Made by a program: the position numbers and the translations under genes
From: Candidatus Poribacteria bacterium
GTDB taxonomy: Bacteria; Poribacteria; WGA-4E; WGA-3G
Direction: 5' to 3'
DNA length: 34,544 nucleotides
Assembly (NCBI GenBank): GCA_022827885.1
Contig: JAJEIP010000056.1
Location: 1 to 34,544 of the forward strand
Shown here: in pieces, positions 2 to 34,521 of the stretch
Layout of the letters: the number at the start of each line of letters is the position of its first letter
Position numbering within the stretch: position 1 is the first letter of the stretch
Notes under the pieces: generated by a model
Database searches by the model: none
What the model saw: the letters and a program-made list of their open reading frames with translations, nothing else
Told to the model about the DNA's origin: nothing

Positions 2-121
2 TTTTTACCCCCTTATTCACCTGATTATAATCCGGTTGAACATGATTTCGCCAATATTAAACGAAAGCGTGAATATCACCCAGAAAAGTCCATTGAGGAT
101 ATTATTCACATGTATAAGTAA
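2..121 (+). CDS. IS630-family transposase, C-terminal end (partial at window edge)
   Basis: Frame 2 is open from the window edge to a TAA at 119-121 and encodes about 39 residues. They begin FLPPYSPDYNPVEHDF and continue with a basic stretch (NIKRKRE). The PPYSPDYNPVE block is the hallmark of the DDE catalytic core end of IS630/Tc1-type transposases, where the final acidic residue lies in the NP-x-E context (here E13 of the fragment). Only the 3' end is visible, so whether the element is intact cannot be judged. It lies 93 bp upstream of mlaF, on the same strand, where mlaE would often be found. Confidence 0.8.
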   Translation, partial: FLPPYSPDYNPVEHDFANIKRKREYHPEKSIEDIIHMYK

Positions 122-196
122 TTCTAAAATCTACCATAAAACACACAGGCGGATATGAGCAACGTCCGTCAAAGTCCAAACGTACGCTGTGTCTCT

Positions 197-995: not shown

Positions 996-2552
996 ATGAA
1001 CTTCTGGACGGCTTCGGTAAAAGTTGGTGTAATGGTTCTAATCGGAATTGTTTTGCTGACAATTCTTCTGACGAATGCTGAGAATTGGCCGTGGGCAGCT
1101 GCTGGGGATGAACTGACCTTTCACTTTCGTTCTGTCAACGGACTTTATGTCGGCGCAGGCGTTTACTTATATGGGGTGCAAATCGGCAAAGTAACGGCTA
1201 TCGAACTCCGTCCTGACACGGATAATGTGCGCATCAAAGCGAGAGTCAAAAACGCTTTTGAATGGTTACGGGAGGACTGTAGTGCCAGAATTTCTATGAA
1301 TGGATTTGTCGGTGAAATTTATATCGCACTTGACAATGGACCAGTTGGGAACCCCGTATTAAAGCCAGCGAACTTGCCGATTGTTGGAAAAGACCCCGTC
1401 AATGCTTTGGAACTCCTTGAGCAGACAAGTGCTGGTATGACACAGGCTATTGAACTGACAACGGCTGCGAATGAAGTGCTACAGGCGAACCAAGAAGCGA
1501 TTCAACTCGCCATTAAAGAGATTCGCGAGGTTGTCTCACTTACTGGAAAGACGATTGAGAAGTTAAGTCTTGACTCTGAAGAGACCGTAAAAACGCTGAC
1601 ACAACTCGCCTTAGAAAATGATAGACGGTTTCAGGATACCCTCGTAAAGGTGAATAACCTTCTAACACAGTTAGAAGGCGATTCCCTGATGGTGAGTAGT
1701 CAAATTAGTGACATCACGCGTGAACTCTTGAGACTTCTGAATCAAAATTCACCGAAGTTGAACACTATTTTTACCGATATTCACGCAACAACATCAGAAT
1801 TTCGACAGATCACACAGGATTTTCGATCGGATTTCGAGGCGTTAGCGACACAGGTTTCTGCCCTCGTTTCGCAAAGTAGTCGTGCAATTGAAACGGGAGA
1901 GGTCAATATCGCACCCATATTAGAAAATCTGAAGGCAACGACGGCTTCGGTCGCTACGGTGGAAGCGAGTGTCAATCGGTTTCTTACCACGCTTAACGAG
2001 GGGGAAGGGACCGTCTCCCAATTGTTGAACACACCGGAACCGCTTGAGGATGTCCGCCGAACCTTGAAAAATGTCGACGAAACGATGAATGCGGTAACGG
2101 AACTCTCGCAAAGAACTGAAACGCAGTTGGAGCAATTTAATTTACCACAGTTTGGCTGGGACTATGAACTCCGTTATCTGAGTCTTGAAGAGCGACTCCA
2201 CAACGAGTTGGCATTTTTACTCTCTCAAGGACCTGAGGCGCACTACAGACTCGGGGTCGGGGTTCGAGACGAGAAGATTCGGTTTGAACTTCAGTATGGG
2301 TATAACGTAACAGATTTCCTTCGGGCACGTGCTGGGTTTATGCGTTCCAGAGTCGGCGCGGGGCTCGATTTGTGGTTGTGGTCCCGCCGTTTCGGCATCA
2401 GCGTTGAAGGGGTAGGGTTGACAAGCAGAGAACCCGAGTTGAACGCGGAAGTGGGATTTCGGTTCTTCCGATATGGACAATTCCTACTTGGCGTGGAGAA
2501 TGTGACCCGTGAGCGGCGTTGGACAACAGGATTCCGCTTTTTTGGTTTTTAA
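996..2552 (+). CDS. mlaD: MlaD-like MCE protein with C-terminal beta-rich (barrel-like) region
   Basis: A 518-aa substrate-binding/tunnel component of the MCE transporter. One N-terminal membrane anchor (about residues 8-27) precedes the MCE domain (about 37-120), which contains VNGLYVGAGVYLYGVQIGKV. Residues about 130-375 are predicted helical and rich in coiled-coil-like stretches, as in MCE proteins that build long periplasmic needles. The last ~140 residues change character: alternating hydrophobic and aromatic beta strands (for example HYRLGVGVR, IRFELQYGYNV, RWTTGFRFFGF) ending in a terminal Phe, as outer-membrane beta-barrel proteins do. That tail is unusual, since simple MlaD proteins are under 200 aa. 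Likely role: carrying lipid between the inner and outer membranes with the MlaF ATPase. The MCE call is firm; the barrel is an inference. Confidence 0.88.
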   Translation: MNFWTASVKVGVMVLIGIVLLTILLTNAENWPWAAAGDELTFHFRSVNGLYVGAGVYLYGVQIGKVTAIELRPDTDNVRIKARVKNAFEWLREDCSARISMNGFVGEIYIALDNGPVGNPVLKPANLPIVGKDPVNALELLEQTSAGMTQAIELTTAANEVLQANQEAIQLAIKEIREVVSLTGKTIEKLSLDSEETVKTLTQLALENDRRFQDTLVKVNNLLTQLEGDSLMVSSQISDITRELLRLLNQNSPKLNTIFTDIHATTSEFRQITQDFRSDFEALATQVSALVSQSSRAIETGEVNIAPILENLKATTASVATVEASVNRFLTTLNEGEGTVSQLLNTPEPLEDVRRTLKNVDETMNAVTELSQRTETQLEQFNLPQFGWDYELRYLSLEERLHNELAFLLSQGPEAHYRLGVGVRDEKIRFELQYGYNVTDFLRARAGFMRSRVGAGLDLWLWSRRFGISVEGVGLTSREPELNAEVGFRFFRYGQFLLGVENVTRERRWTTGFRFFGF

Positions 2553-3991: not shown

Positions 3992-4058
3992 TACGATTCG
4001 CTATGTGTTGATGGTAATAAAGCCTGAATGTGAGCGTTGTTAAGTCGGTTTGTTTACA

Positions 4059-4079
4059 AAATAAATCACTAATTTATTT
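4059..4079. repeat. AT-rich inverted repeat between radA and yacL
   Basis: AAATAAAT and ATTTATTT form perfect 8-bp arms around a 5-nt loop, 68 nt after the radA stop. AT-only pairing makes it a weak terminator. It could be part of the promoter region of the next gene. The rest of the 199-bp gap (3992-4190) shows no other structure that I can support. Confidence 0.35.
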
Positions 4080-4190
4080 GGGCGCAGATACTGGTAGACA
4101 GAGGTATCTTGTGAGCGTAAATAGAATCCGCGCCCGTGAGAGGCAGCACTGTTTTTCGAGTTACACGTTGCGTACAATGGAGTACAAAAA

Positions 4191-5219
4191 ATGAAAGTTT
4201 GGGGTATCCGTCTCTTTTTTATACTTGCAAGTGCAGCAAGCTGCTATATCATTTACAGGGACCCAATTACAACGGTTGTCGGATGTGTCGTTGCCCTTCT
4301 TCTGATTGGGGCAGAAATGTGTTTGCGTACACCGAGCATGCGTAGCATCATTGCAAGTCTGATAGGGCTTGCTGTAGGTCTATTAATTTCTATCGCTATA
4401 CTACCTTTGCTTTCGCAACTCGATGGTAACCTCAAGATAGTGATGGTTCTCAGTCTGGGTTACCTTGGCATGATGGTCGGTTATCATCTCTCTACGACAT
4501 GGGATTTAAGTCAACTGTCCGGATCAAACACATCTACCCGCCTTGGCGAGTCACGTTCGGCTCAAGCCGCAAGTAACTTCAAAATTTTAGACACAAGTGT
4601 TATTATTGATGGGAGAATTCTTGAGATCTGTCAAACCAGATTTATCGAGGGGACGCTTGTCATTCCGCGGTTTGTTCTCAATGAGTTGCAACATATTGCG
4701 GATTCAACCGAACCCCTCCGCAGAAATAAAGGACGGCGCGGTTTCGATATTCTCCGAGCACTTCAGAACAACCCAGCGATTGATGTTGAGATCTCAGAGG
4801 AGGAAGTCCCGCATTTGCCCGAAGTCGATGCAAAGTTAGTGCATCTCGCACAGAAGCGCGGGGCAACGATTATCACAAATGATTTAAACCTCAACAAAGT
4901 CGCTGAATTGCAGAGTGTGAAGGTCCTCAATATCAACGAATTGTCAAACGCTGTCCGGCCCGTCGTCATTGCCGGTGAGGCCATTCAAGTACTCCTCCTC
5001 AAGGAGGGAAAGGAACCGAATCAGGGCGTTGGCTATCTTGATGATGGAACGATGGTAATTGTTGAGGATGGCAAGCCTTACATCGGAAGCACGCTTAACG
5101 TTGAAGTTACACAGATGTTACGGACGAGTGCAGGTCAGATGATTTTCACGCGAATCAAAGAACATGAACTGGACATTGATGAACAGCAAGGTGTGCGCTC
5201 TTATCCCCGCAGCTGGTAA
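4191..5219 (+). CDS. yacL: YacL-like membrane PIN/TRAM-domain protein
   Basis: A 342-aa protein with about four N-terminal membrane helices (within residues 5-110), then a PIN nuclease domain starting at LDTSVIIDGRI with acidic residues D134, D140 and E165 (in FVLNELQ). A TRAM RNA-binding module forms the C-terminus (about 270-335, GVGYLDDGTMVIVEDG). This is the architecture of Bacillus YacL. The PIN domain suggests a metal-dependent ribonuclease, but the physiological target of this family is not established. It is followed by ispD with overlapping reading frames, the same neighbour as in Firmicutes. Confidence 0.9.
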   Translation: MKVWGIRLFFILASAASCYIIYRDPITTVVGCVVALLLIGAEMCLRTPSMRSIIASLIGLAVGLLISIAILPLLSQLDGNLKIVMVLSLGYLGMMVGYHLSTTWDLSQLSGSNTSTRLGESRSAQAASNFKILDTSVIIDGRILEICQTRFIEGTLVIPRFVLNELQHIADSTEPLRRNKGRRGFDILRALQNNPAIDVEISEEEVPHLPEVDAKLVHLAQKRGATIITNDLNLNKVAELQSVKVLNINELSNAVRPVVIAGEAIQVLLLKEGKEPNQGVGYLDDGTMVIVEDGKPYIGSTLNVEVTQMLRTSAGQMIFTRIKEHELDIDEQQGVRSYPRSW

Positions 5220-6530: not shown

Positions 6531-7961
6531 ATGAAGATCTATAACTCACTGAGCCGACAATTGGAGGATTTTGTCCCGCTAAATCCCGAACAGATATCTA
6601 TCTACAGTTGTGGTCCAACTGTTTACGATTACATTCACATGGGAAATGCACGCTCTTTTTTGGTGACAGATATTGTTCGGCGTTATTTGGTGTATAGCGG
6701 GTACAAAGTCAAACTGGTTCAAAATTTGACGGATATTGATGATAAGATTATTAATCGTGCGGCAGAATTAGGGGTGCCGGCAAAGCAACTTGCCCATCAG
6801 AACGGGGAAGCATTCTTTGAGGATTCCCAACGCCTCGGTATCCATTCTGCGGATGTCCACCCGAAAGCAACCGAACACATTCCAGAGATGATAAGTCTAA
6901 TTCAGACCCTGATTGATAAAGGGGCGGCTTACGTTATTGATGGGAGTGTTTATTACCGCGTGAATCAATTTGCTGAATATGGGAAACTTTCTGGTCGAAA
7001 ACCAGAGGATCTCCTCGCAGGGGCGCGGGTTGAAATTGATGAACGGAAGGAGGACCCGCGGGATTTTGATATGTGGAAAGCCGCGAAACCGGGTGAACCT
7101 TCTTGGGAAAGTCCGTGGGGTAAGGGCAGACCGGGATGGCATATAGAATGTTCTGCCATGGCGATGAAACATCTCGGTGAGACGATTGATATTCACGCAG
7201 GGGGTGAAGATTTACAATTCCCGCACCACGAAAATGAGATAGCACAGAGCGAATTGGCGACCGGACACACCTTCGCACGTTACTGGATACACGTCGCTTT
7301 TTTGAAGATTGATGGCAGACGAATGGGCAAATCGGAACACAATTTTATCCTGCTACGAGACGCGCTTGACCATTATCCCACCGAAGTGATTCGTCATTTC
7401 CTGATTTCCGCACATTACCGGCACCCCCTTGACTACAATCCGGAGAGTTTAGCGAAATCGGAAGGGGCACTCAGACGTTTGAACAACTGTTTGGACGCCT
7501 TGAAAAAATATGAGGGGTGTAAGGACGAGGTACCCTTGTCTGATCGGGACACGGAAACCCTGCCCCTACACGAGGCCATCCAAACGATGAAATCGCGATT
7601 TACCGAGGCGATGGATACAGACTTCAACACCGCACAAGCACTCGGTGCTATTTTCACGCTTGTTGGCGAAGTCAACAGATCGCTTGCGACTTCTAATGGC
7701 GCAGCTGCCCCTGTTTTCGCACAAGCCTATCAGGCGTTGACTGAAACCTGTGAGGTGCTCGGGATTTACAATATGGATGCCGAAGATGGCAGCAATGTGG
7801 AGCAACGCGACCAACTCATTGCTCTACTATTGGAGGTCCGACAGGAGGCACGAAGTCGCAAAGATTGGGATACATCCGATAAAATTCGGGACAGGCTTAA
7901 AGAACTCAACATTGAAATCCAGGACACCCGTGAGGGGGCGACTTGGAAAATTATATCATAA
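6531..7961 (+). CDS. cysS: Cysteinyl-tRNA synthetase
   Basis: CysRS, 476 aa, class I aminoacyl-tRNA synthetase charging tRNA-Cys. Visible: zinc ligands C27 (SCGPTVYD) and C207 (IECSAM), with the GGEDLQFPHHENEIAQSE block supplying the histidine and glutamate ligands. The HIGH signature is H36-M-G-N39. The second signature, usually KMSKS, reads R264-M-G-K-S268, a divergent form that keeps the functional lysine and serine. The C-terminal helical anticodon-binding region ends with KIRDRLKELNIEIQDT. Length is standard. It sits after ispF, as in the Firmicute cluster, but gltX and cysE are not between them. Confidence 0.97.
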   Translation: MKIYNSLSRQLEDFVPLNPEQISIYSCGPTVYDYIHMGNARSFLVTDIVRRYLVYSGYKVKLVQNLTDIDDKIINRAAELGVPAKQLAHQNGEAFFEDSQRLGIHSADVHPKATEHIPEMISLIQTLIDKGAAYVIDGSVYYRVNQFAEYGKLSGRKPEDLLAGARVEIDERKEDPRDFDMWKAAKPGEPSWESPWGKGRPGWHIECSAMAMKHLGETIDIHAGGEDLQFPHHENEIAQSELATGHTFARYWIHVAFLKIDGRRMGKSEHNFILLRDALDHYPTEVIRHFLISAHYRHPLDYNPESLAKSEGALRRLNNCLDALKKYEGCKDEVPLSDRDTETLPLHEAIQTMKSRFTEAMDTDFNTAQALGAIFTLVGEVNRSLATSNGAAAPVFAQAYQALTETCEVLGIYNMDAEDGSNVEQRDQLIALLLEVRQEARSRKDWDTSDKIRDRLKELNIEIQDTREGATWKIIS

Positions 7962-7972
7962 GGAGTAAGAAG

Positions 7973-8611
7973 ATGATTTATCGATCCATTGCGTTATTTT
8001 CAGTGTTCTGCTTGGTTTCCGTTATTTTCACAGGGTGCGCCGCACTCTTCTCAGAACAGGAGTGGAGCGAAAATTATGCCCTCATGGAAGGCGTATCGGC
8101 GACAAGTCCACAGATGATTGATGGCAAATTGAACACGATCGGGGAAACCACCTTCCCCGCAGGATCACAGGGATTCATTGGTGCGAATCCTGCTTCACAG
8201 GTCATAATTACCTTGCCGGAAAAAAAGACGATCCGTCGGATTGTCGTGCATTCGGACAATTTAAGTGAGTTTGATATTTACGCCGATAAAGGCAGCATCG
8301 CCGTTGATGCGGATTGGCAGTTAATTAAGGACGTCCGGAGCGTCAAACAGAATCCGATTAAGATCGCGCTGCTGATTCCGTTTCCGACAGATCGTATTCG
8401 GTTACGCGTTTTAGGCACGAAAGATGACGCCCTCTTGAGCCGACAGGAACGGGCACGTTCTGGTGGTAGAGGCTGGAATATCGGAAGTCGGCGCGCTGTC
8501 GGAAAAATTCGAGAGATTGAACTTTACGGTTATAAAACCGCTGAACAGGTTGAAGAGGAACAGGCTACCGATAAGCGTGAAAAAGAACTTGATGAATTGC
8601 TCGATTTGTAG
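7973..8611 (+). CDS. Predicted lipoprotein with discoidin-like domain
   Basis: A 212-aa protein. The start at 7973 is chosen over the upstream in-frame ATG at 7943 because AAGGAG sits 7 nt before it and it yields a clean lipoprotein signal: MIYRSIALFSVFCLVSVIFTGC with C22 as the lipidation site. The mature part has a pattern like F5/8-type C (discoidin/galactose-binding) domains: IGETTFPAG, then QVIITLPEKKTIRRIVVHSDN, FDIYA, and RIRLRVLGTKDD. A charged Glu/Lys-rich tail follows. Predicted location is the periplasm or outer membrane; the ligand is unknown. The next gene is a similar lipoprotein, so they are probably divergent duplicates. Confidence 0.75.
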   Translation: MIYRSIALFSVFCLVSVIFTGCAALFSEQEWSENYALMEGVSATSPQMIDGKLNTIGETTFPAGSQGFIGANPASQVIITLPEKKTIRRIVVHSDNLSEFDIYADKGSIAVDADWQLIKDVRSVKQNPIKIALLIPFPTDRIRLRVLGTKDDALLSRQERARSGGRGWNIGSRRAVGKIREIELYGYKTAEQVEEEQATDKREKELDELLDL

Positions 8612-8715: not shown

Positions 8716-9306
8716 ATGCGTTTTGGATTATTGATACTAACCCTCTGCGTGGTGGTTGGGATGTCGGGCTGTATTCTCGCGTCGAATCCAGCTCTTAATT
8801 TGAGCAAGAACATCGCACTTGATGCGACGAGCGAGGATACAAAGTACCATGACGACAATATCTACTCGATAGGAGAGACAGGTCCGATTCTCGAAGACGG
8901 CAAGGATGAGGCGTCCCAAATGGAGTCGGATAAATACACGGAGGCTGTTTTGAGATGGCGGCAACCCCAGACGATTCAGCAGGTCGTGGTGAAAGCCGAA
9001 CCGGGGCAACTTGAGTTCTTCGCCGTTCAATACATGAATGATGAGGAAGAATGGATTACGGTAAAAGAGGTCCGCGACAATATGCGTCCGGTGTACAGGT
9101 TCACTTTGAAGGATCCGATTGTGACGACGAAGTTTCGGCTCAAAGTGCCGCGCCGTTGGGACTCGCGCCGCGTCGGGGGGGCGAAACGCTCAACCCGTGG
9201 TGAAACTGGAGCACCCACTGCGCAAGAATATAAAAAGATTCAGGAAATTGAAATCTATTACGTGCTCCCACCGGATCCGATGGAAGCTGGCACAGCAGAA
9301 CAGTAA
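8716..9306 (+). CDS. Predicted lipoprotein with discoidin-like domain
   Basis: A 196-aa protein with a near-perfect ribosome-binding site (AAGGAGGT) 5 nt before its ATG. The signal MRFGLLILTLCVVVGMSGC predicts lipidation at C19. The mature domain starts with ALNLSKNIALDATS and contains IYSIGETGPILEDGKDE, LRWRQPQTIQQVVVKAE, FFAVQYMNDEEEWITVKEV and TTKFRLKVPR, which is a discoidin-like beta-sandwich pattern. It parallels the preceding lipoprotein in order of elements (IGET, IQQVVV/IRRIVV, FRLKV/IRLRV), suggesting an old tandem duplication. A binding role at the cell envelope is plausible; no catalytic motif is seen. Confidence 0.75.
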   Translation: MRFGLLILTLCVVVGMSGCILASNPALNLSKNIALDATSEDTKYHDDNIYSIGETGPILEDGKDEASQMESDKYTEAVLRWRQPQTIQQVVVKAEPGQLEFFAVQYMNDEEEWITVKEVRDNMRPVYRFTLKDPIVTTKFRLKVPRRWDSRRVGGAKRSTRGETGAPTAQEYKKIQEIEIYYVLPPDPMEAGTAEQ

Positions 9307-15906: not shown

Positions 15907-18714
15907 ATGCAAGGATTATCACTTAATTTTCGTTCGGAAACGCTTTTGGCGCTAACTGATAAAATCAAATCCAGTATTGAGGGGCGGATGAGTTGGGGAG
16001 ATACCTTTGGCTTAGGGCTTGGTGTGAAGTCAGATAAGCATCTGATCGTTTGGACACCCAAAGAGAGCTCAGAGGGCGACATTCTACCCGGTTTTGACTC
16101 AGAAGATGGTAAGCTTACAGTAAAGATGCGACCGCGTCCAGGCGCATGGGTTTCCTGGATTGACGAGGCGAAGATCACAGCCGGGACACAGGATGACTAT
16201 GACCGGGTCCACAGAAGCATACAAGAATTGGAGCGGAACGCGCGCCAAATCACAGATTTCGCCGATGGCAGCGTCTCAGATATTACGATTCAAAACTTGG
16301 GAAAATCCCTAACGCTTTCCGAACTCGCTCAGGATGTTCTAAAAACACGGTTGACAATACCCAGTACCGTCAAAACGGGTGGGTACGTACTCGCAAATAT
16401 GGCGGAGGCTGATACTAAGGTACTGCCCCCGGCGACCGTTATCGTTCCAGAGCAAACCCACATTCATCGCGTGCATCTCAATGAAGACGCACTTTTTGAC
16501 CAAATACTCGCCCAGGACTACAGGCTGCTGCTTGTGGTCATCAGAACTCATATTAAGCAGTACCCCGATCTCATCGACTTGGGATACGGTTTAACACTTC
16601 ATACGCGACTGTCTAATGTATTCGAGGAGCCAGACGCAGAGACATCGGAGGCAATTAAAGAAGAGGCTGATCCTATTCAAGTGCTCGCCACAGGGGCGGT
16701 TTACGATCCTCTTGAACCCGAGATGCTGCGATTCGTGCCTGTTGCGTTCAGCGCACCCGCTGAGGAAATTGAAACCGCAATTCGCGAGAGTTCAAAGAAA
16801 ATCGAAACGTACACGGTGAAAGCCAATCAAAACGCCTATCAACTCATGGCGCAATTCCAACAGGGCGTAGAAACCCGTTTGAGAGCCCTTGTCCTTGGAC
16901 CGGGGCAACGCGTCCATAATAAGGTATGGGACGATCTGGTGATCCGTGAATTACGGAACACTATGCTTACTTTCGTCGAATTCTATGAGGAATATCTCAC
17001 CGAGCATTTTGAGGCATCAATCGCAGCGGCGAAAACCGAAGAGCTCAGAGAGAATATTGACCCCATGATAGAATTTTGGCAGTTACAGGATAATCAGCAG
17101 TTAACCCTGAATCACCTTATTCAATCCTCCTATAAACTGGCGAATCAGGTGCTCGATCGAGCTGCTGGATTGTTTCATGATCTCGTGTTTGAAGAGGACT
17201 TCATTGAAATCGGGCTTGTCAGGCAGGTGGATCTCTCAATTTTCGAGAATAACGAACTCTTAAACGAAATTTACTTGCCACAATGGACGCGTGGAACCGT
17301 CCGTGAGAAGATGGCAGGTATTACGCTGCGCTCAACTTTACATGCAACGCAAGTTGAACGGTTGACGAGTATCTGGTTGGAATTGCTGGAACTCGCAAAC
17401 TTCGCAAGTCAGAACGGGCAGGATTTTGAAATCGTTATTCAACCGTTAGTCAATCTCCTATTAGCCGAGAAAGCAGAGAAACCAACGCAGCGCCGAAGTC
17501 AGCAGGCACAGCATCGAGGGAGAACTACCAATTTTGCTGGTTTTGAGATTCCTGATAAAACTGTCGACCAAATCCTTGATCATGTAAAACTGCATTTACC
17601 AACTATAAAACAATGGTTGCAGAATATGCCTTCAGCTGTTGATGAGCGACAGCATTACGCAACCTTGTGGGCGTTGGTGCTTGATGGGCGGCTCCGTGAG
17701 CAACTCTTGGCGGATATTCAACCTACCTGTGATATTAATCTGAGTGTACCCGACCAGACCAAAAGGTTAATCAATCTCATGCTCGGCAGCGCGCTTATTA
17801 TTCAAGCTGAGAAAGACCGTAAGTCAATAGAGCGTAACCTAAACCGGGCGGTTATCTCAAAGACTGGACACGAATTGGCGAATGTCACAACAGCGGCAAT
17901 GCTTGCTATACATGGAGATACCCTGCTTGCAATACTTTACGAGGAATTGCTCGGGTATCATGACACTTTGGCAAAGCGGGCAGGGAAGCTCGCACACCCC
18001 CCTCAAAAAGGGAAGAAGCGGAAACGTGGGCAATCGCGGAATAACGGTGCCGCGAATGCTGAGGCGATTGAGGCGGAGCAGCAAAAAGTTGAAGAACTCA
18101 TGGCTTTCCTCAGACCCTACCGCCAAGAAGAAGTTATCACCACTTTAGCGATAGCCGGTATTGATCCTCGGGCCATTAACCTTGAAGAAATTCGGAAGCA
18201 GCAGGTCCTCAGTTTCGACGTAAGTGATTTACCCGCCATCGGTGAAACGTGGCTCGGTGATAGTAAAAGCGTCGGGGATTATCCAAATTTGCGGGTGTTC
18301 CTCCTGCAAAATCAACTCCCGATATCGACAACGGGACGGTTGCTTATGGAATTGCGACAGCAATTTCCGGATGAGCTTTTCAATCATGTCTTAGGGCTCA
18401 TCCAAGAGGTGAAGGCACTCCAAGGCGATGATTTTAAGGGTCATCTGCTCAATCAGTTTGTTACGTATATTTCCGAGAAGGTGTGGCGGTGGGAGTTGAC
18501 ACAGATTACGGAGGCTGAACTGCCACTTTTGCTGAAGGAAAAGGTACTCGCATCGGCGATCTGTTATGAAAAAGAGGTCGATAGTTTACTCGAATACGTT
18601 GAGCGCTATGATGAACTCGTATCTACAAAACTATCAGCAGGTTCAGAAATGGACAACCACCGTCAATATATCGAGGAACAATTTCAAGCAATCGTTGAAA
18701 CCCTTTTAGTCTAA
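15907..18714 (+). CDS. Large uncharacterised soluble protein (935 aa)
   Basis: A long intact frame with normal codon structure and no signal peptide or membrane helix. I do not recognise the family. An N-terminal region (about 1-115) has beta-type segments (LSLNFRSETLLAL, DGKLTVKMRPRPGAWVSW), then the protein is mainly alpha-helical to the end. A strongly basic Lys/Arg linker lies at about 698-712 (PPQKGKKRKRGQSRNN) before a further helical domain. No Walker, nuclease or protease motif was found. It stands between the methyltransferase and a degenerate dehydrogenase-fold gene 24 nt downstream, with which it may share an operon. The start at 15907 lacks a ribosome-binding site; ATG 15988 is an alternative. 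Confidence 0.8.
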   Translation: MQGLSLNFRSETLLALTDKIKSSIEGRMSWGDTFGLGLGVKSDKHLIVWTPKESSEGDILPGFDSEDGKLTVKMRPRPGAWVSWIDEAKITAGTQDDYDRVHRSIQELERNARQITDFADGSVSDITIQNLGKSLTLSELAQDVLKTRLTIPSTVKTGGYVLANMAEADTKVLPPATVIVPEQTHIHRVHLNEDALFDQILAQDYRLLLVVIRTHIKQYPDLIDLGYGLTLHTRLSNVFEEPDAETSEAIKEEADPIQVLATGAVYDPLEPEMLRFVPVAFSAPAEEIETAIRESSKKIETYTVKANQNAYQLMAQFQQGVETRLRALVLGPGQRVHNKVWDDLVIRELRNTMLTFVEFYEEYLTEHFEASIAAAKTEELRENIDPMIEFWQLQDNQQLTLNHLIQSSYKLANQVLDRAAGLFHDLVFEEDFIEIGLVRQVDLSIFENNELLNEIYLPQWTRGTVREKMAGITLRSTLHATQVERLTSIWLELLELANFASQNGQDFEIVIQPLVNLLLAEKAEKPTQRRSQQAQHRGRTTNFAGFEIPDKTVDQILDHVKLHLPTIKQWLQNMPSAVDERQHYATLWALVLDGRLREQLLADIQPTCDINLSVPDQTKRLINLMLGSALIIQAEKDRKSIERNLNRAVISKTGHELANVTTAAMLAIHGDTLLAILYEELLGYHDTLAKRAGKLAHPPQKGKKRKRGQSRNNGAANAEAIEAEQQKVEELMAFLRPYRQEEVITTLAIAGIDPRAINLEEIRKQQVLSFDVSDLPAIGETWLGDSKSVGDYPNLRVFLLQNQLPISTTGRLLMELRQQFPDELFNHVLGLIQEVKALQGDDFKGHLLNQFVTYISEKVWRWELTQITEAELPLLLKEKVLASAICYEKEVDSLLEYVERYDELVSTKLSAGSEMDNHRQYIEEQFQAIVETLLV

Positions 18715-25891: not shown

Positions 25892-25947
25892 CTAAAATAT
25901 GAAAACCACTTGCCAATCAAGTTCATAATGTGTGGAAGGGAGAGCCC

Positions 25948-28900
25948 ATGAAAAGTTGGAAAATCTTTGTTATCTTTACCTGTCTATTGATGCCTATTTT
26001 CGGAAGTTATCAAAGTGCCGATGCACAGGAAAATATTGCCCAACAGGCGTATGCGATCTTTGAGCAAAATTGCCTCAACTGCCATGGAGTATACGGCGCG
26101 TTTATTGAAGAAATCATCATTGATCATACAGTGCTCATCGAAACAGGCGCAGTTGTTCCAGGGAAACCGATTGAATCCACCGTCTATACGCGGCTCCTTG
26201 AAAAAGACCTCACCAAAGGGATGCCGTTGGGTCAACCGCAACTTCCCGCCGCCGCGATTCTAACAATTGGCAACTGGATTCAAGCCGGCGCGCCGGATTG
26301 GCAGCCCCCAGAACGAGACACTGCCTTCATCACCCCCGCCGAAATGCTTGAAACGATTGAGCGTCACCTCAACTCGCTTTCGCCATTTGATCGCACCTTC
26401 ACACGCTATTTCACGCTGACGCATCTCTATAACGCAGGTGAGAGTCCAGAGGCACTCCACGCCTATCAACGGGCACTCTCTAAACTCGTGAACAGTCTCT
26501 CTTGGGGACGCGAAGTCATCAGACCCCAACCCATTGACCGAGAAGAAACAATCTTCTACATCGACCTCCGAGACTACGAATGGGAGATCGGAACCCACCG
26601 ATGGACCCAGATTGAACAGGTGTATCCGTATAGTATTGAGTTCGATGCCCCGACACAAACGACTCTCCGTGAAAAATTAACAAATCTGCGCGAAGCGATG
26701 GAGTGTGAGGTGCCGTTCGTTCATGTGGATTGGTTTATCGCTACAGCCTCCTTGCCGCCCCTCTATCACGACATCTTAGATCTTCCACAGACGGATCGGG
26801 AGTTAGAGGCACGGCTTGAGGTAAATGTAGTGGAAAATATCCGAAATGCGGCAGGAAAACGCGTCTGGCGGGCGGGTTTCAATGATTCTGGTGTCTCCAA
26901 TAACAACCGCGTCGTCGAACGGCACCTTTCCCGGTATGGCGCGTATTGGAAAAGTTACGACTTTGCTGGGAATGTGGGGACGCAGAGCGTTTTTACCCAT
27001 CCACTTTCATTTGAACACGATGGTGGCGAGATTATCTTCAATCTTCCCAACGGTTTGCAGGCATATTATCTGGTAGATGCTGGAGGCAACCGGCTGGACG
27101 AAGCCCCGATAGAAATTGTCCGAAACCCCGCTGCGAGTGATCCGACTGTCCGCAATGGACTCTCCTGCATAGGTTGCCACACCGAAGGGATGAAGACGTT
27201 TGAAGATCAGGTGCGCGCTGTTGTTGAGAAGAACCCAAATCCGCTGTTTAACAAAGAACAGGCGTTGCGTCTCTATGCAGAGCAGGGGACGATGGATGCT
27301 TTTATAGATGAGGATACTGAGCGTTACCGGCAGGCACTTGAAAAAACAGGCGATGTCTTCGGTGGGATTGAACCTGTTCAGCGGTTTCACGAGGCGTTTC
27401 AAAGGCCACTTGATGCGGCGCATGCGGCTGCCGCGGTCGGGTTAGAAACGGCGGATTTCCTCCAGAAGGTTCGTGAGAATGCGAGTCTGAGAAACTTAGG
27501 TTTGGCGGTGCTAACAGGGCCGAATGGCACTGTGAAACGGGATACATGGACCTCGAATTTCAGTGAAATCGTTACGACGCTGAGCTCTCCCGACAGCGAT
27601 ATAGTTAAGCCTGTTACCCCTCGAACTGAACGTATCCCTGGGGCTACTGTGCATATCCGTGACGTAAACCTTCGTGATGCAATTGCAGAGGCACTTGGTA
27701 AAAATCCCAATGTTCCGATTACCGCAGAAGAAATCGCGACATTGGAGAGATTGAGGGCGGAGAACAGGAACATTAGCGATTTGACAGGGCTTGCGTTTGC
27801 AAAAAATTTAACAGTATTAGTTATCAGTTACAATCCTTTATCCGATCTCTCAGCACTTGCTTCATTGACAAAATTGCGTGAAATACAATTTCGGGGCACT
27901 GAAGTAGCTGACCTTTCACCCCTATCAGGATTGCGCGATCTTGAAGCAATAAATGCCTCAGAGACTCGTATAACAAGTCTAACACCCTTGGCAGGACTCA
28001 AAAATCTGCAAAAGTTAGACACCGTACATTCTGATATTACGGACCTCTCACCCCTGGCAGGATTGACAAACCTAACAAGACTCCGTTTATATGACTGCAA
28101 AGCAACCGACCTCTCACCCTTAAAGGGCTTAACAAAACTCAGATGGTTTGGTCTTACGCACACCGATAATATCTCGGATCTCTCACCCTTGTCCAGATTA
28201 ACAGACTTGGAACATCTTGCTCTGTCCGATACTGAGATTTCAGATATTTCCCCGTTGGCAGGATTGGTTAATTTGAAAACGTTGATACTCAATAGGAATC
28301 AAATTGTAGATGTCTCGCCACTTGCATCTCTACCTAACTTAAAAAATTTACAGCTTCACGAGAATAACATCTCTGACCTCTCACCATTGGATCGCATACG
28401 CGAGAGTATAGAAGTCTTCACTTGGTTTGGTAACCCGGCCTTTCCACAAGGCGGTCCAAATATTGAGGGACCTTGGCTCTGGCTGACCTTGCCCGTAAAA
28501 TTAGACAAAGATGGACCTCTGACGGATTATTTAGCAAAAGCATCCAACAATAAATCTACAGAACAACAGATTGCTACCCTCGGGGCCTCGGAAGGGACTC
28601 TTATAGGGAACAGTGCATGGTCAGGTGGAATGCTTGAGCCTTACGCCCCTAATAACTTCACAGGTAATAAGACGAACCTTAGAAGATTATTAGACTCTCA
28701 AGGCACTATTGAACCCAATATTTATGGGCAGTTGTTTGTTGTCTACAGTTCTATCACTTTGTATTCTCCGAGAACACAGCAGACCAAAATATTTATAGGT
28801 GCCAGTAATGGTCAGAAAGTCTATCTTAATGGACAATTAGTCCATGAAGACTACGCAAACTATGCCTTTGGAGCACACAATATTGGTTACCGAACATTTT

Positions 28901-30060
28901 TTCCTATCACGCTACAAAAGGGGAAAAATGTCCTGCTGGTAAGGCTTGACGAGTTGCAGGCACATTATGAGTTATGGTCTCTCTTTTTTGGATTTGAGCC
29001 TGGCACCGAATATACGATATCGAACCCCCGTGTCGGGTACACCTTATCTGATCCTAAAGTCCACGTTGGTGATACCTTCACTCTTGATCTGAGTGCTGAA
29101 GATGTCCACGATTTAGCGGGATGGCAATTTGATATTGAATTTGATCCTACCGGACTTGAAGTCGTTGAAGTCAAAGAAGGCGATTTCCTGAAAACAGGAG
29201 GCGCGACGACCTTCTTTCAGAAAGGAAGAATTGACAATCGCTCTGGGAAGATTACAGGGCTCAGCGCAGCGAGTCTCACCGGAGACGGTGTCAGCGGCAC
29301 AGGCCTGCTCCTTTCAGTGATCTTCTCCGCAAAGGCAGACAGACAGACGCAATTGGCGTTGCACAACTTCCAATTCGGTTCCAGCACGGGACAGGCGATC
29401 CCTGCCGAACCTCATACGTTTACCATTGTTGTCGTGGAATCGCTCACAACTGGCGATATAAATCGAGATGGACAGGTAAGTATTCTGGACATAATCTTAG
29501 TCGCCAAACACTTGGGGGAAACCGCACCCTCCAACTCGGAAGTAGATGTAAACGGGGATGGAATCGTCAGCATCCTGGACATTATCCTTGTGGCGGGACA
29601 TCTCGGTGAGTCAACGGCTCCAGCCGCACCTTCTCTGCTTGCAGAAGCCCTAAATCCTGATCAGGTAGTGGCGTGGATAGCACAAGCACATGTTGAAGGC
29701 GACGGCTCCGTTGCTTTCCAACGAGGCATCGCGAGCCTTCAAAGCCTCTTAGCATTGCTAATTCCTGAAGAGACAGCATTGCTGCCGAACTATCCGAATC
29801 CGTTCAACCCAGAGACGTGGATACCCTATCGACTTTCCGAACCTGCGGAGGTCACTTTGCGAATCTATACTGTGAATGGTATCTTGGTTCGGACGTTGGC
29901 GTTGGGACATACACCTGCTGGTATCTATCAAAGCCGTAGCCGTGCGGCGTATTGGGATGGCAAAAATGATGTCGGTGAACCTGTGGCAAGTGGGGTCTAT
30001 TTCTACACCTTAACCGCAGGCGATTTCACGGCAACGCGGAAACTGCTAATTCGCAAATAG
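25948..30060 (+). CDS. Giant secreted protein: haem c, LRR, cohesin, dockerin, C-terminal sorting domain
   Basis: A 1370-aa exported protein. The start at 25948 is preferred to GTG 25930 because of GGAAGGGAG 6 nt upstream and a clean signal peptide (residues 1 to about 28). Domains in order: a haem-c site C42-L-N-C45-H46 in a planctomycete-type cytochrome module; an unfamiliar region with a second CxxCH (C407-C410-H411); internalin-like leucine-rich repeats at about 606-817 (consensus SDLSPLxxLTxL); a beta domain at about 830-1020; a cohesin domain at about 1024-1160 (VGDTFTLDLSAEDVHDLAGW); a dockerin with two calcium loops (GDINRDGQVSILD, VDVNGDGIVSILD) at about 1167-1221; and an NYPNPFNPETWIPY sorting domain at about 1281-1370. 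It is probably a surface-anchored electron-transfer or binding scaffold; its partner and substrate are unknown. Confidence 0.9.
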   Translation: MKSWKIFVIFTCLLMPIFGSYQSADAQENIAQQAYAIFEQNCLNCHGVYGAFIEEIIIDHTVLIETGAVVPGKPIESTVYTRLLEKDLTKGMPLGQPQLPAAAILTIGNWIQAGAPDWQPPERDTAFITPAEMLETIERHLNSLSPFDRTFTRYFTLTHLYNAGESPEALHAYQRALSKLVNSLSWGREVIRPQPIDREETIFYIDLRDYEWEIGTHRWTQIEQVYPYSIEFDAPTQTTLREKLTNLREAMECEVPFVHVDWFIATASLPPLYHDILDLPQTDRELEARLEVNVVENIRNAAGKRVWRAGFNDSGVSNNNRVVERHLSRYGAYWKSYDFAGNVGTQSVFTHPLSFEHDGGEIIFNLPNGLQAYYLVDAGGNRLDEAPIEIVRNPAASDPTVRNGLSCIGCHTEGMKTFEDQVRAVVEKNPNPLFNKEQALRLYAEQGTMDAFIDEDTERYRQALEKTGDVFGGIEPVQRFHEAFQRPLDAAHAAAAVGLETADFLQKVRENASLRNLGLAVLTGPNGTVKRDTWTSNFSEIVTTLSSPDSDIVKPVTPRTERIPGATVHIRDVNLRDAIAEALGKNPNVPITAEEIATLERLRAENRNISDLTGLAFAKNLTVLVISYNPLSDLSALASLTKLREIQFRGTEVADLSPLSGLRDLEAINASETRITSLTPLAGLKNLQKLDTVHSDITDLSPLAGLTNLTRLRLYDCKATDLSPLKGLTKLRWFGLTHTDNISDLSPLSRLTDLEHLALSDTEISDISPLAGLVNLKTLILNRNQIVDVSPLASLPNLKNLQLHENNISDLSPLDRIRESIEVFTWFGNPAFPQGGPNIEGPWLWLTLPVKLDKDGPLTDYLAKASNNKSTEQQIATLGASEGTLIGNSAWSGGMLEPYAPNNFTGNKTNLRRLLDSQGTIEPNIYGQLFVVYSSITLYSPRTQQTKIFIGASNGQKVYLNGQLVHEDYANYAFGAHNIGYRTFFPITLQKGKNVLLVRLDELQAHYELWSLFFGFEPGTEYTISNPRVGYTLSDPKVHVGDTFTLDLSAEDVHDLAGWQFDIEFDPTGLEVVEVKEGDFLKTGGATTFFQKGRIDNRSGKITGLSAASLTGDGVSGTGLLLSVIFSAKADRQTQLALHNFQFGSSTGQAIPAEPHTFTIVVVESLTTGDINRDGQVSILDIILVAKHLGETAPSNSEVDVNGDGIVSILDIILVAGHLGESTAPAAPSLLAEALNPDQVVAWIAQAHVEGDGSVAFQRGIASLQSLLALLIPEETALLPNYPNPFNPETWIPYRLSEPAEVTLRIYTVNGILVRTLALGHTPAGIYQSRSRAAYWDGKNDVGEPVASGVYFYTLTAGDFTATRKLLIRK

Positions 30061-31971: not shown

Positions 31972-34521
31972 ATGAAAAGAACACGATTCTCCATTTTTTT
32001 GATAACCATTCTATTTTTAATTATGTATCTACCGAGTGGCTTTGCCCAAGATTCTCCACAATGGCATCTGCCTGAAGGTGTCAAAACGCGCCTCGGCAAA
32101 GGGTGGAATTCCGAGATGGCATATTCCCCAGATGGAATACGTTTGGCAGTCGCGAGTAGTATCGGCGTTTGGCTCTACGATGCCGGGACAGGCAAAGAAC
32201 TTAACCTGCTCACAAGGCATACGGGTGAGGTCAGATGCGTCTCGTTCAGTCCAGATGGACAGACGTTAGCGAGTGGAGGTACTGCCATCCAACTGTGGGA
32301 TGCGAGAACGGGGGTGCCTCTTCAGAGGCTACAGGCGTATATGGGTTGGGTTTTGAGTATCTCGTTCAGTCCAGATGGACAGACGATGGCGAATGGAAGT
32401 AGTGACTCGACTGTTCACCTATGGGATGTGAGGACAGGGGCACATCTTCGCACGCTGAACGGACATACGGGTCAGGTTAATAGTGTGATGTTTAGTCCCA
32501 ATGGTCAAACGCTGGCGAGTGGGAGTTGGGACGAGACCATCCGATTATGGGATGTGAGAACGGGGGCGCATCTTCGGACGTTGAGGGGGCATGCGCGTGG
32601 GGTCAACAGTGTTGTGTTCAGTCCAGATGGGCAGACGCTTGTGAGTGGGAGTTGGGACGGGACTATCCGTTTCTGGGATGTGAAGACAGGTGTCCAACTT
32701 CGGACGCTGAGGCATGAGTGGACGGTCAACAGTGTCGTGTTAAGTCCAGATGGGCAGACACTCGCAAGTGGGCATTATGGATTCATCCATCTATGGGATG
32801 TGGGGACGGGGCATCACCGTCAGACGCTGAGAGGACATCCGAGCTACGTCGAGAGGGTCGTGTTCAGTCCAGATGGGCAGACGCTTGTGAGTGGGAGTTG
32901 GGACGGGACTATCCGTTTCTGGGAGACGAGAACAGGGGCATATCTCCGCACACTGACAGGGCATGAGCGTGGGGTCAATAGTGTAGCACTCAGTCCCGAT
33001 GGACAGACGCTGGCGAGTGGGATCGAAGATGCTACCATCCGTCTGTGGAATATCTCAAGTGGGAGGGATCTGCGGACGCTCGCCGAGGGAACGTCAGGGA
33101 TCCAGAGTGTCGCGTTCAGTCCCGATGGTCGGACATTGGCGAGTGGGCATTATGATGGCATAGTTCGTCTCTGGGATACGAAAACCGGTGAACATCTTCG
33201 CATGCTTGAAGGGCATAAGCGTTGGGTCTATAGCGTAGCCTTTAGCCCGGATAGTTTTACACTTGTGAGTGGTGGAGATAACATTCATCTCTGGGATGTG
33301 AGAACCGGCGCACATCTTCGGACCCTTGAGGGGCATACAGGTAGTGTCAAGAGTGTTGTGTTCAATCCCGATGGGCAGACGATCGCAAGTGGGGGTGGGC
33401 ATCCGGATAATACCATCCGTCTCTGGGATGTGAGAACCGGTGAACATCTTCGCACGCTTGAAGGGCATACGTTTGCAGTTGATAGCGTCGTGTTCAGTCC
33501 CGATGGGCAGATGCTGGCAAGTGGAAGTCAGGAGGTAATTCAGTTGTGGAATGCGAGGACCGGGGCGCACCTCCGGACGCTGACAAGACATCTGGCTTGG
33601 GTTCACAGTGTCGCGTTCAGTCCCGATGGGCAGACGTTGGCGAGTGGGAGTTTGGACGATATCATTCGCTTATGGGACGTGCCGACTGGTGAGCATCTTC
33701 GGACGCTCGAAGGGCATACAGGTAGTGTCAATAGTGTCGTATTCAGTCCAGATGGGCAGACGTTAGTGAGTGGGAGTTCGGACGGCACAGTGCTTCTGTG
33801 GGATCTCGCACCTACCGCACAGGAATCGAAAAGAATTGTAGCGGATATCAACGCTGACGGTATCGTGAACATCCAAGATTTGGTGTTGGTTGCTTCCAAC
33901 TTTGGAAAAACTGGGGAAAATATCGCCGATATCAACGGCGATCACGTTGTGAATATCGTGGATTTGACATTGGTTGCCGGCATGTTAGACAACGTTGCCG
34001 GTGCCCCGTCAGTATGGGGGAGCGGTTTGGAGATCAATCCTACAAGAGACCAAGTCGAACAGTGGTTACGTGAGGCACAACAAGTAAATCTCACAAATTC
34101 GGACTTTCAGCGTGGGATTCTGGTGTTGGAGCAGCTTCTCGCCGAATTGACTCCTACAGAGACAACACTCCTGCCGAACTACCCGAACCCGTTCAATCCT
34201 GAGACGTGGATACCCTACCAGCTCGCAACACCCGCAGATGCAAGTATATCCATCTATACGGCAAGTGGACAATTGGTTAGGAAATTAGATTTAGGACATC
34301 AACCTATAGGTATCTATGAATCCCGGAGTCGTGCGGCGTATTGGGATGGCAGAAACACACTCGGTGAACCCGTCGCGAGCGGTGTGTATTTCTATACGCT
34401 CACTGCCGGGGATTTCACTGCCACGCGGAAGATGTTGATACAAACTATAAATAAAAGGAGAAACTTTTTTGAACCTCGTTTTTTCATTCCTTTGACAATT
34501 ATAACCCAAGCCACCTATTGA
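31972..34521 (+). CDS. Secreted WD40 protein with 14 blades, dockerin and C-terminal sorting domain
   Basis: An 849-aa exported protein. The signal peptide (about 1-25) ends in SGFAQ. Fourteen WD40 repeats run from about residue 42 to 618, each with the core SVVFSPDGQTLASGS...IRLWDVRTG...LRTLxGH, consistent with two seven-bladed propellers. A dockerin follows (about 622-678; VADINADGIVNIQD and IADINGDHVVNIVD), then a helical linker and the NYPNPFNPETWIPY sorting domain (about 731-823) shared with the giant gene upstream. The normal end of that domain (ATRKMLI) is followed by about 25 extra residues encoded by a copy of the gene's own leader and signal region. Role: probably surface protein-protein interaction. 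A weak AAGGA precedes the ATG. Confidence 0.93.
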   Translation: MKRTRFSIFLITILFLIMYLPSGFAQDSPQWHLPEGVKTRLGKGWNSEMAYSPDGIRLAVASSIGVWLYDAGTGKELNLLTRHTGEVRCVSFSPDGQTLASGGTAIQLWDARTGVPLQRLQAYMGWVLSISFSPDGQTMANGSSDSTVHLWDVRTGAHLRTLNGHTGQVNSVMFSPNGQTLASGSWDETIRLWDVRTGAHLRTLRGHARGVNSVVFSPDGQTLVSGSWDGTIRFWDVKTGVQLRTLRHEWTVNSVVLSPDGQTLASGHYGFIHLWDVGTGHHRQTLRGHPSYVERVVFSPDGQTLVSGSWDGTIRFWETRTGAYLRTLTGHERGVNSVALSPDGQTLASGIEDATIRLWNISSGRDLRTLAEGTSGIQSVAFSPDGRTLASGHYDGIVRLWDTKTGEHLRMLEGHKRWVYSVAFSPDSFTLVSGGDNIHLWDVRTGAHLRTLEGHTGSVKSVVFNPDGQTIASGGGHPDNTIRLWDVRTGEHLRTLEGHTFAVDSVVFSPDGQMLASGSQEVIQLWNARTGAHLRTLTRHLAWVHSVAFSPDGQTLASGSLDDIIRLWDVPTGEHLRTLEGHTGSVNSVVFSPDGQTLVSGSSDGTVLLWDLAPTAQESKRIVADINADGIVNIQDLVLVASNFGKTGENIADINGDHVVNIVDLTLVAGMLDNVAGAPSVWGSGLEINPTRDQVEQWLREAQQVNLTNSDFQRGILVLEQLLAELTPTETTLLPNYPNPFNPETWIPYQLATPADASISIYTASGQLVRKLDLGHQPIGIYESRSRAAYWDGRNTLGEPVASGVYFYTLTAGDFTATRKMLIQTINKRRNFFEPRFFIPLTIITQATY
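32614..32678 (+). repeat. 65-bp exact direct repeat in WD40 gene, first copy (blade 5)
   Basis: Identical at every base to 32860-32924 (blade 7), 246 bp or exactly 82 codons apart. It covers the core from VFSPDGQTLVSG through SWDGTIRFW. Perfect nucleotide identity implies recent duplication or gene conversion. Confidence 0.9.
32860..32924 (+). repeat. 65-bp exact direct repeat in WD40 gene, second copy (blade 7)
   Basis: Second copy of the blade-core repeat at 32614-32678. The sequences diverge immediately outside the 65 bp (blade 5 continues GATGTGAAG, blade 7 continues GACGAGAAC). Confidence 0.9.
34435..34456 (+). repeat. 22-bp direct repeat, right copy (3' end of WD40 gene)
   Basis: Identical to 31938-31959. 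It is followed by AAGGAG and then a stretch that, read in the WD40 frame (PRFFIPLTII), resembles the start of the WD40 protein's signal peptide (TRFSIFLITI). This suggests the relic of a second gene start. Confidence 0.8.

Follow-up and report, generated by a model that had tools for sequence, protein, structure and literature searches.

The 518-residue protein considered here is, in our reading, the poribacterial form of the long transenvelope MlaD, working within a three-part MlaEFD phospholipid transporter; we put the probability of this at roughly three in four. Its gene lies near the start of the window, by which we mean the whole stretch of DNA that was analysed (34,544 nucleotides of a Candidatus Poribacteria bacterium contig). 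In computational terms, the domain order on the single chain runs from a transmembrane helix, through an MCE domain and about 244 amphipathic helical residues, to a ten-stranded barrel (Table 1), and all of the parts that the initial annotation had placed on one chain (an anchor, the MCE domain, a long amphipathic stretch of helix and a barrel predicted to be of the membrane type) are supported. The interval to which it had drawn attention, positions 2130-2552, corresponds to residues 379-518. The architecture itself is not new; what is new is its presence throughout the Poribacteria, together with a spacer that is both longer and of nearly fixed length.

Table 1. Features of the MCE protein and its upstream neighbour in the window, and of the barrel-less MCE paralogues in other Poribacteria loci
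Feature	Coordinates	Strand	Basis
mlaF-like ABC ATPase, 259 aa	215..994	+	PF00005 130.2 bits; adjoins mlaD on its upstream side
mlaD-like MCE protein with barrel tail, 518 aa	996..2552	+	ORF, Pfam, AF2 models
N-terminal transmembrane helix, residues 6-26	1011..1073	+	AF2 helix; hydrophobic in sequence
MCE (MlaD) domain, residues 37-115	1104..1340	+	PF02470 E 4.7e-16
Amphipathic helical spacer, residues 137-380	1404..2135	+	Low-confidence model helices; helical periodicity; near-constant E107-Y394 distance in the phylum
Conserved GxG..L motif within the spacer, residues 336-343	2001..2024	+	29 divergent sequences
Ten-stranded antiparallel beta-barrel, residues 385-517, predicted outer-membrane domain	2148..2546	+	AF2 pLDDT 90.2; fold matches; face alternation; Gly-rich, conserved polar face
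Barrel-less MCE paralogue with its own mlaE and mlaF	L076 391-1722
Barrel-less MCE paralogue with its own mlaE and mlaF	L080 2591-3916
Barrel-less MCE paralogue with its own mlaE and mlaF	L082 2965-4302	minus

The MCE assignment rests on a Pfam search of the 518-residue frame, in which PF02470 reaches 59.2 bits (cut-off 25.1) over a single stretch; the tandem MCE domains of the PqiB/YebT multi-MCE type were not found in the protein. Two further models fall below their thresholds, namely the E. coli-type MlaD model TIGR04430 (71.1 against a cut-off of 135) and the mycobacterial Mce model TIGR00996 (62.1 against 140.5), and the best match among PDB sequences is to the mycobacterial Mce1 complex (8fed; E 5.4e-9, residues 39-258). 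The hydrophobic anchor sits within residues 1-36, and the helix modelled there has a pLDDT of about 60-77. For the neighbouring ATPase, the top NCBIfam model is PRK11831 (MlaF), at 222.5 bits and under its cut-off of 441. No second MCE gene was found in the 5.1 Mb genome from which the window comes.

Genes for mlaE, mlaF and mlaD lie consecutively in 32/33 close loci and in 16 of the 17 distant tail-bearing stretches, with the one exception in each set falling at a contig end. In the genome of the window the arrangement is interrupted: the window is contig C20, and mlaE, present as a single copy, lies on another contig (C135), such that absence of mlaE from this genome is ruled out. At the start of the window (2-124) lies the final part of a DDE_3 transposase, and the mlaE contig (L002) terminates in the start of a transposase-like frame (L002 2332-2410). 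Since transposase remnants are present at both contig ends, and the sequence beyond them aligns at 94% with L003, where the mlaE-mlaF region is intact, an insertion element between mlaE and mlaF has probably broken the assembly of this genome; we presume that the element is of the IS630 type. When these two contig ends are compared by BLAST with a further locus, L020, each of them finds two positions (at about 4029-4265), which suggests that the mlaE-mlaF intergenic region of L020 carries a duplicated segment.

Elsewhere in the window, we noted a 1376-residue frame (25930-30060) that combines leucine-rich repeats with cohesin, dockerin type I and C-terminal FlgD-Ig-like domains, and an 849-residue frame (31972-34521) that contains 13 WD40 stretches and scores very highly against propeller models from eukaryotes. 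A frame of 935 residues (15907-18714) has no Pfam match at E 0.001. Two lipoprotein-like frames are neighbours, the first (7943-8611) having no Pfam match and the second (8716-9306) resembling F5/8 type C domains below the cut-off.

Turning to the tail, residues 376-518 were folded with 31 relatives (AF2), and the best of five models (mean pLDDT 90.2, pTM 0.78; range of mean pLDDT across the five, 66.8 to 90.2) consists of ten antiparallel strands spanning residues 385-517. This bears out the proposal that the last ~140 residues are amphipathic beta strands, and what is predicted is a barrel with one hydrophobic strand face, and not a soluble beta-sandwich. The same ten strands are returned by the full-length run, in which the overall mean pLDDT is only 47.2, with values of about 63-80 for the barrel and about 26-40 for the spacer, and in which the arrangement of one relative to the other is not predicted. 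The top fold matches in the PDB are OpcA (Z 16.4, rmsd 2.4, 133 aligned), Legionella porin I (Z 16.3, rmsd 2.5, 130 aligned) and the designed transmembrane barrel TMB10 (Z 15.7, rmsd 2.3, 128 aligned), whilst the Foldseek matches at E 0.001 or better comprise KdgM, twice, and a designed transmembrane barrel. Against a viral fold library, the model chiefly retrieves general outer-membrane barrels, plus some unrelated proteins, with weak scores. Taken as a structural prediction, the tail is very probably an outer-membrane barrel.

Searches of Pfam and of PDB sequences do not assign the tail to a family. Pfam, at E values up to 10, gives no match for the window tail or for the tail of one relative, and membership of a known Pfam outer-membrane family is ruled out, the sole match being a weak and unrelated one between another relative's tail and DUF4345 (E 0.13). 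A profile of the tail matched no solved structure among PDB sequences (best E 0.3, to unrelated proteins). In plasmids, tblastn returned 15 records, all of them confined to residues 62-299, in the MCE domain and the helices, so that the tail is left unmatched; a scan of viral contigs gave 184 stretches with the pattern, none of which was confirmed.

All 33 loci carrying close relatives of the protein, from a scan of genome contigs, belong to the Poribacteria; PF02470 is present in 81/84 Poribacteria genomes, and the tail profile in 79/84, covering 21/21 genera, with exactly one match per genome. In an alignment of 59 distinct proteins, the tail always shares its reading frame with the MCE domain, although one of the 59 ends inside the tail at its contig end. 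An artefact of frame or assembly is therefore ruled out as its source. Three of the genomes in which the tail is missing have no MCE match at all (G076, G007 and G022); another (G032) has an MCE frame of 352 residues only, and the last (G018) has only an MCE frame of 457 residues, similar in size to the proteins of the barrel-less kind. That kind is represented by three paralogues of 442-446 residues in G012, G016 and G023, where the barrel system coexists with it. These second MCE proteins share the transmembrane helix, the MCE domain, the helical stretch and the mlaE and mlaF neighbours, and differ in having no barrel: their C-terminus, SLF, comes soon after the helices, and they carry repeated GEGTxGKL-like motifs. 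They may resemble the Bacteroidetes-type MlaD.

The terminal Phe that the initial annotation had picked out is real in the window and is not general. Across the window and 33 close relatives, the final residue is Trp in 29, Phe in 4 and Asp in 1; in the 24 complete distant relatives it is Trp in 14, Tyr in 5 and non-aromatic in 5.

The alignments behind the comparisons that follow differ in their membership. Two of them draw on the 34 close sequences, of which A1 holds 32 (L005 and L015 left out) and A2 holds 30 (L005, L012, L015 and L025 left out). The other two, A3 and A4, hold 29 divergent sequences, made up of the window protein, 7/33 close relatives and 21/25 distant ones (L040, L041, L063 and L073 left out), with identity to the window protein falling to about 21%.

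The helices of the spacer are predicted by the full-length model at low confidence, and six segments taken from that model were analysed for periodicity; when hydrophobicity is averaged over the 29 sequences, all six show a period of 99-103 degrees, with p at or below 0.0005 in every one. Within the spacer motif, G336 and L343 are invariant and G338 is nearly so. The distance from Glu107, in the MCE domain, to Tyr394, in the first strand, is 286 residues in 39/59 distinct proteins and 283-288 in 57/59, the two remaining proteins having 278 and 291. Because this length is nearly constant despite identities as low as 21%, the sequences suggest that the spacer is a rigid, length-critical element rather than a loose linker. 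As one straight helix, 244 residues would extend for about 37 nm, which exceeds the 24 nm measured for the periplasm of Veillonella parvula (PMC10665443), and either a wide poribacterial periplasm or folded-back helices would therefore be expected. One could go further and regard the spacer as a molecular ruler, with MlaD setting, or following, one fixed distance between the inner and outer membranes; we offer this as a tentative idea, and a rather doubtful one.

The constancy of the spacer would also suit a protein whose barrel is only a tether, that is, a periplasm-crossing rod that keeps the membranes at a set distance whilst lipids travel elsewhere, for example by way of TamB, which is found in this same genome. 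(LptD, sought there with PF04453, was not found, with a model that is insensitive, detecting 2/14 control genomes and missing Synechococcus and Bacteroides.) Most long MlaD proteins, according to the main text of PMC10665443, have no barrel, so that the barrel may be dispensable for transport. However, the protein retains its MCE ring domain and the locus its mlaE and mlaF genes, and an ABC transporter would be superfluous for a pure tether, which leaves us to consider this an unlikely explanation.

Which side of the barrel might face the membrane is addressed by the pattern of residues along its strands, with the outward face assigned by hydrophobicity and not from the coordinates of the model. 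In the window protein, charged or polar residues (D, E, K, R, H, N and Q) make up 2% of one face and 55% of the other, and the alternation between hydrophobic and polar positions gives a contrast of 2.18, against 0.90 +/- 0.20 for shuffled strands, a value equalled by none of 10,000 within-strand shuffles. The contrast has the same sense in 29/29 sequences, the window included. Such alternation fits a hydrophobic face that is directed towards lipid just as it fits one that is packed into a soluble core, so the orientation rests on glycine, conservation and loops. Gly occupies 171/882 cells on the polar face and 42/840 on the hydrophobic one; of the 14 strand positions that are most conserved, moreover, 13 lie on the polar face, where the threshold of 14 was picked after the list had been seen. 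Mean entropy does not differ significantly between the faces (p 0.21; 18 of the 29 sequences kept, those at 62% identity or more having been removed). As to the loops, those opposite both termini reach 16 (S1-S2), 7 (S3-S4), 16 (S7-S8) and 14 (S9-S10) residues in relatives, with S5-S6 staying at 2, and the turns on the side of the termini reach 6, 7, 4 and 2. The longest loops thus lie mainly opposite the termini, which fits a linker that arrives from the periplasm.

These features bear on a second alternative, namely a soluble periplasmic barrel, similar to lipocalins or nitrobindins, that binds lipid or caps the tunnel. Soluble nitrobindin-type barrels do match the model (Z 10.8-12.3), and alternating faces by themselves suit either kind of barrel, but the outer-membrane and designed transmembrane barrels score more (Z 15.7-16.4), a Gly-rich polar face that holds the most conserved positions resembles a lumen and not a soluble surface, and the longest loops are on the far side from the termini. 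The V. parvula counterpart, moreover, is recovered in outer-membrane fractions, where the tagged barrel fractionates with TolC (PMC10665443). Together, the Gly-rich and conserved polar face and the pattern of the loops favour a membrane barrel over a soluble one, which we regard as improbable; and if the tail is a membrane barrel, then the polar face of its strands would be the lumen.

Returning to the long transenvelope MlaD, we propose a model for how the poribacterial system might move phospholipid, which as a whole we think probable. Hydrolysis of ATP by MlaF would drive MlaE, on which six MlaD chains would assemble their MCE domains into a ring; the helices of the six chains would then form a tunnel that crosses the periplasm and has a hydrophobic lining, and the barrels would hold the far end of that tunnel in place by inserting into the outer membrane. 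At its mouth, the tunnel would exchange phospholipids with the outer membrane, and would do so without a soluble MlaC or a lipoprotein MlaA: neither was detected in any of the 84 Poribacteria genomes (0/84 for each; positive controls, E. coli and Caulobacter). LpxC, for lipid A, is present in 81/84 of these genomes and Omp85 in 84/84. For the direction we follow the analogy of V. parvula and E. coli, and assume it to be retrograde, from the outer to the inner membrane.

In this scheme, the barrel is most likely an anchor that aligns the tunnel, or a docking end, and not a pore. The barrel is unlikely to be the path taken by lipid because its lumen would be polar and Gly-rich; with 55% of that face charged or polar, and with the V. 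parvula barrel judged by its authors to be too narrow for phospholipid (PMC10665443), we take it to be an anchor. The description of the protein as a ‘self-contained lipid conduit’ is, for the same two reasons and given the mlaE-mlaF-mlaD cluster, overstated. That the barrels are themselves the lipid path, with six or three chains merging into a larger TolC-like pore, an option that the authors of PMC10665443 raise for V. parvula, seems very improbable to us, as each chain is predicted with high confidence to have its own ten-stranded barrel and charged residues crowd the lumen face.

A long MlaD with a barrel tail has already been described, in V. parvula, by Grasekamp et al. 2023 (PMC10665443), and the contrast with ‘standard’ MlaD drawn by the initial annotation consequently holds against the short E. 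coli form and not against this published one. Like the V. parvula protein, the poribacterial one has a transmembrane helix, a single MCE domain, a helical stretch and a C-terminal barrel of ten strands, and is partnered by mlaE and mlaF with no MlaA or MlaC; unlike it, the poribacterial chain has 518 residues, compared with 419, and about 244 helical residues, compared with about 150 (PMC10665443). The two barrels are likened by domain order and strand number, and not by sequence homology. The E. coli MlaD of the MlaFEDB system also places a transmembrane helix and a single MCE domain on a transporter of the MlaE/MlaF type, but, at 183 residues, is without the long helix and without the barrel (PMC10665443). 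With mycobacterial Mce1 (8fed), the protein shares an MCE domain followed by a long helical tail; in Mce1, however, a small barrel of six strands is built jointly, with one strand from every chain (PMC10665443), whereas the poribacterial chain is predicted to have ten of its own.

As regards distribution, the main text of the 2023 paper gives 103 sequences with an inferred C-terminal barrel, and states that the PVC and FCB groups are without it (PMC10665443). Poribacteria are not named in that main text, although its supplements may list the phylum, and we found no report of this protein in Poribacteria in the open-access literature, subscription journals being outside the scope of the search. 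Kamke et al. 2014 (PMC3909097) place the Poribacteria outside, but contiguous to, the PVC group, such that the phylum adjoins a group in which, in its main text, PMC10665443 found no barrel.

Our analysis therefore extends the barrel form to a candidate phylum that sits beside groups reported to be without it, and supports the proposal made in 2023 that lipid transport over a one-chain bridge from membrane to membrane is both old and widespread (PMC10665443). The genomes that hold both the barrel and the barrel-less MCE systems provide a natural comparison for the role of the barrel. Finally, the near-constant spacer yields a measurable prediction, namely that the spacing of the membranes in Poribacteria should match the length of the tunnel; were the reading of the spacer as a ruler to be true, that distance would be far above the one in V. 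parvula, and with straight helices might reach about 37 nm.
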